From Isoalcanivorax pacificus W11-5 (lineage in GTDB: Bacteria > Pseudomonadota > Gammaproteobacteria > Pseudomonadales > Alcanivoracaceae), in contig NZ_CP004387.1 of assembly GCF_000299335.2 (NCBI RefSeq), positions 3,240,994-3,304,993 on the forward strand: a DNA stretch of 64,000 nucleotides, read 5' to 3'. Below, in pieces: positions 28,940 to 30,480 of this stretch (the stretch's first letter is position 1; every line of letters starts with the position of its first letter). Under the pieces are notes generated by a model. The model had not been told where the DNA came from. It made no database searches and saw nothing but the letters and a program-made list of their open reading frames with translations. The position numbers and the translations under genes were made by a program.

Positions 28940-28960
28940 CTAATCGTAGTTATCGATCAT
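28940..28960. other. Right attachment junction (attR) at the trpG 5' end
   Basis: On the minus strand the conserved trpG codons for Met-Ile-Asp-Asn-Tyr-Asp (28960-28943) run straight into ICE sequence, which supplies TAG at 28942-28940. The recombination core must lie in or next to this conserved stretch. Its exact borders cannot be fixed without the left junction. Confidence 0.65.
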
Positions 28961-28975
28961 CAGCACCCGCATCAT
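28940..28975 (-). pseudogene. trpG: trpG 5' fragment, truncated by the ICE
   Basis: Eleven codons follow trpE with an ATGA overlap (ATG at 28975, trpE stop 28974-28972) and a good ribosome site (GGAGG, 28986-28982). They read [11 protein letters not shown], then stop. This is the standard N-terminus of TrpG/PabA glutamine amidotransferases, which continue Ser-Phe-Thr-Tyr-Asn-Leu. The rest of trpG is expected beyond the left end of the ICE, outside the window. Whether the gene there has been given a new start by the element cannot be seen. Confidence 0.88.
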
Positions 28976-30480
28976 TGGGCACCTCCTTGCTGTGCACCAC
29001 GGGCAGGCAGGGTGAGTCCACGCAGGGCCATGTTGACGGCAGTGAACACCGCCCGGCCCTTGTTCATGGTTTCCTTCCACTCCAGCCGTGGCACGGAATC
29101 CGCCACCACGCCGGCGCCCACCTGGATATACAGCCGGCCATCACGGATCACCGCCGTGCGGATCGCAATGGCGGTGTCCATTTCGCCGTTGAAGCCGATA
29201 TAGCCCACCGCGCCACCGTAGACGCCGCGCTTGACCGGCTCCAGTTCATCGATGATTTCCATCGCGCGGATTTTCGGCGCGCCGCTGAGCGTGCCGGCCG
29301 GGAAGGTGGCGCGCAGCACATCCAGCGGGCCGAAACCGTCTTTCAACCGGCCTTCGACGTTGGAAACGATATGCATGACGTGGGAATAACGCTCTACCAC
29401 CATCTTGTCGGTCAGGCGCACCGAGCCGGCCTCGGCAATGCGGCCGATGTCATTACGGCCCAGGTCGATCAGCATCAGGTGCTCGGCAATTTCTTTCGGG
29501 TCCGCCAGCAGTTCCTCTTCCAGCGCCCGGTCCTCAGCGTCGGTCCGGCCACGCTTGCGGGTGCCGGCCAGGGGGCGGACGGTCACCGCGCCGTGCTCGA
29601 TGCGGGTGAGAATTTCCGGCGACGACCCGGCGATGTGAAAATCATCCAGGTCGAGATAGAACATGTACGGCGACGGGTTCAGATAGCGCAGCGCCCGGTA
29701 CAGATCCAGCGCCGGCGCAGCGAACGGCACCGACATGCGTTGCGACGGCACCACCTGCATCACGTCGCCGGCCAGAATGTATTCGCGGATCCGCTCGACC
29801 CCGGCCTCGAAATCCTGCTGCGGGGTATCGGAGGCAAAATCCGTCTCGTTGATGGCGTCGCCATAGGGGCGATCTTCCGGTGCCGGCAGCGGCGCGCGCA
29901 GTTTCGCCTGCAATGCATCCAGCCGTGCATTGGCAGCGGGCAATGCGCCAGCGGCGGCAGGATCAACCAGCACCACCAGGAACAGGCTGCCGCGCAGGTT
30001 ATCGAACACCACCACTTCTTCGCTGCGCATCAGCAGGATATCCGGGTTGCCGAGCGTATCGCGGCCCTTCGGCTGGCCCAGGCGCGGTTCGAAATAACGC
30101 ACGCTGTCGTAGCCGAAATAACCCACCAGGCCGCCGTTGAAACGCGGCAGGCCCTCGATCTCCGGGGCGCGATAGCGCAGCCGGTAGGCTTCGATCCAGG
30201 CAATCGGGTCGCTGACCGTCTCGCTGTGCTCACCGGCCTCGCCGGTCACGCGGATCTCGTTGCCGTAGACGCGAATCACTTCGCGTGCCGGCAGCCCGAT
30301 GATTGAATACCGGCCCCAGCGCTCGCCACCCTGCACGGACTCGAACAGGAAGCTGTAGGGCGCGGCGGCCAGCTTGCGGTAGGCAGAAAGCGGGGTGTCC
30401 AGGTCGGCGAGGACTTCGCGGACCACGGGGACGCGGTTGAAGCCCGCGCGGGCGAATTGCTCAAGATGTTCCGGTGACAT
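28972..30480 (-). CDS. trpE: Anthranilate synthase component I
   Basis: A 502-residue enzyme converting chorismate plus ammonia (from TrpG-bound glutamine) to anthranilate, the first step of tryptophan synthesis. The N-terminal regulatory segment has [10 protein letters not shown], equivalent to the Trp-feedback Leu-Leu-Glu-Ser motif. The chorismate-binding domain carries [15 protein letters not shown], and [10 protein letters not shown] in the last third. ATG 30480 has AGGA upstream; the longer frame adds a non-family Cys-rich stretch. It is complete, but its trpG partner is cut by the ICE immediately downstream. Confidence 0.97.

Follow-up and report, generated by a model that had tools for sequence, protein, structure and literature searches.

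Evidence that a PFGI-1/clc-type ICE integrates in the 5' coding end of trpG and rebuilds the gene in Isoalcanivorax pacificus W11-5

The stretch of 64,000 nucleotides analysed here (the window; positions 3,240,994 to 3,304,993 of contig NZ_CP004387.1 of Isoalcanivorax pacificus W11-5) carries trpE, encoding anthranilate synthase component I, at 28972..30480 on the minus strand. This gene, taken from the list of open reading frames, has matches in 7/7 genomes of the genus and lies on the host side of a junction. Its end at 28972 (-) overlaps by ATGA the next frame, which starts at 28975, has a GGAGG ribosome site at 28982-28986, and consists of a truncated trpG 5' end (28940..28975, minus strand) of 11 codons closed by a TAG at 28942-28940. 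Allowing up to two mismatches, ATGATCGAYAAYTAYGAY matched the window a single time, at 28943-28960(-) and with 0 mismatches (0.01 matches expected from shuffles). Sequence and motif search thus confirm the first-pass annotation, which had described a trpG start cut short directly after trpE. The integrase gene, which it had placed about 155 bases away, starts with an ATG at 28786, some 153 bases past the stop codon of the stub.

The integrase gene (int; 27518..28786, minus strand) encodes a tyrosine integrase of 422 aa (PF13356, PF22022, PF00589) that belongs to the trpG-site clade described below. Its start was taken as the ATG at 28786, where the family alignment begins; an earlier in-frame start exists at 28825. 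Residues R242, K269, H331, R334, H357 and Y369 were invariant among 8 aligned members, and we take them to be the catalytic residues. Two direct arm-type repeats, GTGTATAAY, occupy 28812..28832 (minus strand) at the int-side end, with 3 exact copies in the window compared to 0.11 expected, and the repeat search placed a third, inverted one directly before the int start codon (28787..28795, plus strand). Mates of the direct repeats, GTGTATAATAAAGTGTATAAC, are found upstream of the rebuilt trpG at the other end of the element, in the same orientation as GTGTATAATGGTGTGTATAAC at the int-side end. The inverted-arm pattern GTTAYACAYATG was present in 32/42 carrier loci when the whole locus was searched, and a diverged inverted arm was recognised by eye in 7 of the 10 loci lacking a match. 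We infer that these repeats are the arm sites of the integrase.

A consensus scan revealed a promoter-like site for int, TAGACC-17-TATAAT, matching at 10 of 12 positions (28824..28852, minus strand; 0.2 expected in shuffles), and a search of window 28600-29100 for terminator-like sites found none. The integrase gene may thus be fed by its own promoter as well as by read-through from trpE. Because the last arm is inverted, the int leader (window 28775-28835, minus strand) can form a hairpin whose arms flank the ribosome-site region, making autoregulation possible. Adjoining int (window 26862-27494, plus strand) is a LysR substrate-binding domain for which no DNA-binding domain was recognised. 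When window 26400-31500 was searched with Rfam for a trp attenuator, only a sub-threshold P4 match was obtained.

By gene content, the 70.4-kb element is an ICE of the PFGI-1/clc type with copper cargo. Positions 1..28952 of the window belong to it, and the remainder (C1:3199539-3240993, C1 being the genome contig) lies left of the window. The integrase and the two att junctions enclose a set of conjugation genes on the plus strand, comprising a MobH relaxase of the PFGI-1 class (TraI, TraI_Pfluor; 24446..26449; NF041494 365.6 bits, TIGR03760 298.1 bits), a VirB4-like conjugative transfer ATPase (traC_PFL_4706; 13878..16760; TIGR03744 1461.8 bits), the coupling protein TraD (2128..4347), which scored 1106.8 bits with the TOL-type model TIGR03754 compared to 876.3 bits with the SXT model, and further genes matching RAQPRD, TIGR03749, TIGR03752, TIGR03751, TIGR03756 and TIGR03755 (9066..21185). 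Both relaxase models and TIGR03754, 03744, 03749, 03751, 03752, 03755 and 03756 were over their cut-offs, and PFGI-1 ParB and TopB also lie between the two ends. The copper cargo is found at the trpG-side end (C1:3201618-3214153; L006:2719-15254) and comprises a copper P-type ATPase, a CusS-type kinase, a response regulator, CopB, a multicopper oxidase and CopD. Within the conjugation block, window 5199-9000 (+) encodes an OLD-like TOPRIM/AAA ATPase of 689 aa and, after it, a UvrD-type helicase of 582 aa, presumably a Gabija-like defence pair.

The genome of strain W11-5, a single contig of 4.17 Mb, was searched with a trpG/pabA model, which gave four matches, one of them over the cut-off. This sole TrpG/PabA over the cut-off lies at C1:3198980-3199552(-), 41 kb left of the window, and forms an open frame of 203 aa with no inner stop. 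It begins MAKLLMIDNYDSFTYN, with the start MAKLLMIDNYDSFT preceded by AGAGGTTGTC, and resumes at the same Ile-Asp-Asn-Tyr-Asp-Ser codons as the stub on the trpE side. Its start codon and ribosome site come from the element. The first-pass annotation had anticipated a trpG frame resuming at these codons with a new start at the other end of the ICE, and this end was indeed found on the same contig. The two outcomes it had named as speaking against its idea did not occur: the intact trpG stands at the junction and not elsewhere, and the left end of the ICE lies at trpG and not at an unrelated site without the trpG motif. The strain need not depend on ammonia, as had been proposed in the alternative, and the genome has no second TrpG/PabA over the cut-off.

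The suggestion that the far end supplies trpG with expression signals was borne out for the start and the ribosome site, but not for a promoter. In a scan of the trpG-side end (L006 300-1300), the sole candidate matched at 9 of 12 positions (0.3 expected); it lies at 1200-1172 on the trpG strand, about 510 bp ahead of the trpG start. In the W11-5 element, TATAAT occurs within the arm repeats at this end, with no good -35 box seen, and the conserved columns upstream of trpG (24 distinct upstreams, 31 rows) consist of the arms and an AAATCAAGG...TTA stretch, with no clear promoter. A new element promoter for trpG is consequently not claimed.

Near-identical elements in different hosts confine the crossover to 8 bp, ATGrTsGA. 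In nine carriers from different hosts, the int-side ends were identical over 52 bp, while the host DNA differed up to ATGrTsGA, which was followed by TAACTACGATTGAGG in 9/9. On the trpG side, eight of these nine carriers have a trpG locus, and there the CTCCTG of the element precedes ATGrTsGA, with CAACTACGAC and then differing host DNA after it. Likewise, L050 and L158 (G329) come from two host families and have integrase genes that are 100% identical; over the 260 bp compared before int, every difference lies upstream of the core, and the sequences are identical from the core on. By the same comparison, with host DNA differing upstream and element DNA identical downstream, the crossover interval of the attR in the window is ATGATCGA (28953..28960, minus strand), with its attL mate at C1:3199539-3199546; the two copies (genome 3199539-3199546 and 3269946-3269953) lie 70,407 bp apart. 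The comparison with near-identical elements in other hosts thus indicates that the first codons of the stub are host DNA, and that the part past the crossover (TAACTACGATTAG) is element DNA. In L071, L076 and L078, variable positions of the 8 bp are not the same at both junctions of the element, as one would anticipate were strand exchange to take place across the interval and bases from a previous host to be carried along in it.

The comparison with ICE-free relatives proposed by the first-pass annotation showed trpE followed by an uninterrupted trpG start reading on past the site in 4/7 genomes of the genus (G001, G002, G003 and G006; the first 20 codons from the trpG Met were seen). The remaining three, namely W11-5 itself, G004 and G005, carry the MIDNYD-stop stub.

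Integrase relatives were collected by similarity alone, and 144 rows were scored for their flank. In all 45 rows with an identity of 57% or more, int lies beside a truncated trpG start; the stub was called by a widened pattern in 44 of them and by eye in L085, where it reads ATGCTGTTGATGCTAGACAACTAACATTGG, while L069, missed by a narrower pattern, was also read by eye. The 45 rows represent 42 genomes, as three repeat a genome (same contig and place), and these carriers comprise 16 Gammaproteobacteria, 19 Betaproteobacteria (by record lineage), 6 genomes without class and one Bdellovibrio-labelled MAG. In the latter (L065), int and the trpG stub lie on a 4.4-kb contig that is likely misbinned, since a Rhodocyclaceae MAG has the identical integrase. 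The other 99 rows, some of them near-copies, were below 55% identity, with none above 47%. Among the 84 of these with at least 300 bp upstream, the trpG motif was found in 0/84 and a tRNA gene in 67/84, while no tRNA gene was found within 420 bp upstream of int in any of the 45 clade rows. These findings support the earlier proposal that an ICE uses the 5' coding end of trpG as attB, including the predicted trpG neighbourhood of close integrases and the contrast drawn with tRNA sites.

In a tree of 88 rows, 35 trpG-site integrases formed one clade (100/100) on a long branch, for which the tree program issued a long-branch warning, leaving the nearest outgroup of the clade unsure. The tree omits rows shorter than 370 aa (among the trpG-site ones L052, L080, L081, L083, L084, L086 and L089, which are short or interrupted, none being mended), all viral-contig rows, the repeat genomes L025, L026 and L027, and L039, L040, L041, L046 and L047, which share the identity and frame length of L038. 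Close relatives of the integrase occurred in 4/369 genomes sampled over the class, W11-5 included. Plasmid and phage origins of the clade were considered and rejected: 47 plasmid records (E limit 1e-60) and 204 phage records (1e-40) were matched, none at 60% identity, and none of 37 viral contigs was above 47% identity.

The trpG gene was searched for in 40/42 carrier genomes, the exceptions being those of L065 and L081. TrpG was over the cut-off in 32/40, and in 32/32 of these the other end of the element lies directly upstream and provides an in-frame start. A ribosome-site-like motif was detected in 30/32 using a permissive pattern, and was absent by this pattern in G228 and G340. Two arm-like repeats at a nearly fixed distance upstream were found by pattern in 31/32, compared to 3.75% of 2000 letter shuffles; in the last (L140), whose contig starts too close for the pattern script, they were found by separate scoring. 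The arm-repeat type (GTGTATAA, GTGTGTAA or GTGTATAT) agreed between the two ends in 30/30 scored pairs of the 32, a count made on related rows that are not independent. No TrpG over the cut-off was found in the other 8/40 (G046, G047, G052, G055, G056, G059, G064 and G329), seven of which are titled MAG; G329 is nonetheless 96% complete.

Together, these data make it very probable that a PFGI-1/clc-type ICE of 70.4 kb has integrated site-specifically in the 5' end of trpG, rebuilding the gene, and that its integrase belongs to one clade that sits at trpG. In the mechanism we propose, the tyrosine integrase would recombine attP with attB inside ATGATCGA, corresponding to trpG codons 6-8. The opening codons of trpG would be imitated in attP (MAKLLMIDNYD), which would bring a start codon and a ribosome site of its own, and because of this mimicry Int would pair attP with trpG. 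Integration would separate trpE from trpG, leave trpE with the 11-codon stub and give the far-end trpG an element N-terminus, in W11-5 of equal length, in which M-I-D-N-Y-D is kept; excision would restore the native trpG. Judged from sequence, TrpG is presumably made and active in the carrier, the element may transcribe trpG as well, and the ICE may still excise and transfer. TrpG probably also serves folate synthesis, given that it is the only TrpG/PabA over the cut-off, and elements failing to rebuild trpG would therefore be lost.

The trpE-side copy, ending after 11 codons, could also be taken to mean that the element broke trpG accidentally or by using a secondary site, and that the strain uses an ammonia-dependent TrpE or another amidotransferase. 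We find this scarcely credible, as trpG resumes in frame and without inner stop at the other end, all 42 carrier genomes found use the same site, and each of the 32 trpG genes found has an element-side start codon. That trpG (or trpGDC) is cargo of the element, the host copy having been lost and the far-end gene being foreign, would account for the element DNA in the first codons of that gene. It is nevertheless highly improbable, for near-identical element ends are followed by a trpG that differs by host from just past the 8-bp core, and the G005 gene continues almost as in the ICE-free congener G003 (30 bases shown). We attach equally little weight to the view that attB is the trpE-trpG junction or some property of the trp operon, and not the trpG start itself. 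A trpE match was indeed found upstream in 30 of the 38 named loci, but in the other 8/38 the trpG start is present and no trpE match was found within the upstream DNA examined (up to 3 kb), which argues that trpG itself is the target.

Beyond site-specific integration with repair of trpG, we tentatively consider that trpG might be part of a switch of the ICE, coupling integration state, tryptophan demand and integrase supply, with the loss of trpG upon faulty excision selecting for carriage; we regard this as rather unlikely. In the integrated state, the trpG-side end would drive trpG, and transcription of trpE could continue into int; the two genes share a strand, int being the downstream one, and the scan showed no terminator-like site separating them. 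Once the element is an excised circle, transcription from this same outward-facing end would pass the trpG-mimic codons and enter int.

The strategy of this ICE has known counterparts. According to the available text of PMC4482086 and PMC8409611, dusA islands integrate in a housekeeping gene, at its conserved 5' coding end, and supply it with a new 5' end, with imperfect direct repeats and one main target across many hosts; a dusA-lacZ fusion was still expressed after integration, at a lower level (PMC8409611), and the dusA integrases were placed nearest Rci (PMC4482086). Similarly, trpG receives its new 5' coding end from the element described here, in 32/32 trpG genes found, but this element differs in targeting trpG instead of dusA and in having MobH and its own conjugation gene set. 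SXT/R391 ICEs, as described in the accessible part of PMC8409611, integrate in the 5' end of prfC and give it a new N-terminus, SXT also a new promoter; the parallel with SXT drawn by the first-pass annotation holds as a likeness of mechanism, although the target here is trpG. By model names (PFGI-1 relaxase, TIGR03744 ATPase, TIGR037xx, PFGI-1 ParB, TopB, RAQPRD), the backbone resembles ICEclc/PFGI-1. Relatives of ICEclc attach at the 3' 18 bp of tRNA-Gly (PMC10732049, available sections), whereas attachment here is in trpG codons 6-8, which sets the element apart from the ICEclc family sensu stricto. In Pseudomonas aeruginosa, trpE and trpG are separated by an R-pyocin phage-tail cluster, for which, unlike for the trpG ICE, the accessible text of PMC7344871 describes neither such an integrase nor a rebuilt trpG start.

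Neither an integrative element in trpG nor a trpG-site integrase clade was found in the open-licence literature, as far as its text was available. In the accessible portions, trpG is merely the flank of another cluster, with an ICE at tRNA-Gly, in PMC4686621; trpG or its kin appear only in gene lists or pathway text in PMC6722718 and PMC10413270; trpE appears only as a typing gene in PMC10732049, PMC8012812 and PMC13362518; and the sections available of PMC12884075 do not mention trpG. We therefore regard the trpG ICE as following a known strategy, at a new target and with an integrase clade of its own. It extends the range of protein genes used and repaired by mobile elements to trpG, which is widespread and has a sharply conserved start. 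The element explains the split of trpE from trpG and the short trpG stubs in carriers, and MIDNYD-stop beside an integrase offers a simple marker for ICE ends in draft genomes. Having a single target in many bacteria, the tight integrase clade might also serve as a tool for DNA placement at a predictable chromosomal site.

The two ends were co-directional on one contig in 12 genomes, about 11 to 155 kb apart, and MobH and TraC matches lay between them in 11/12, W11-5 included; the TraC or MobH match was split in G062, G074 and G075. In Aliidiomarina maris (G077; L086, L156), about 11 kb without a MobH or TraC match lie between a shortened int and trpG, and this element is probably a remnant from which trpG still obtains its start. 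Both element ends are also present in G228 and G340 (loci L159/L160 and L198/L199). Those of G340 lie on opposite strands about 200 kb apart, most plausibly because part of the chromosome was inverted at a later time, one breakpoint falling inside the ICE.
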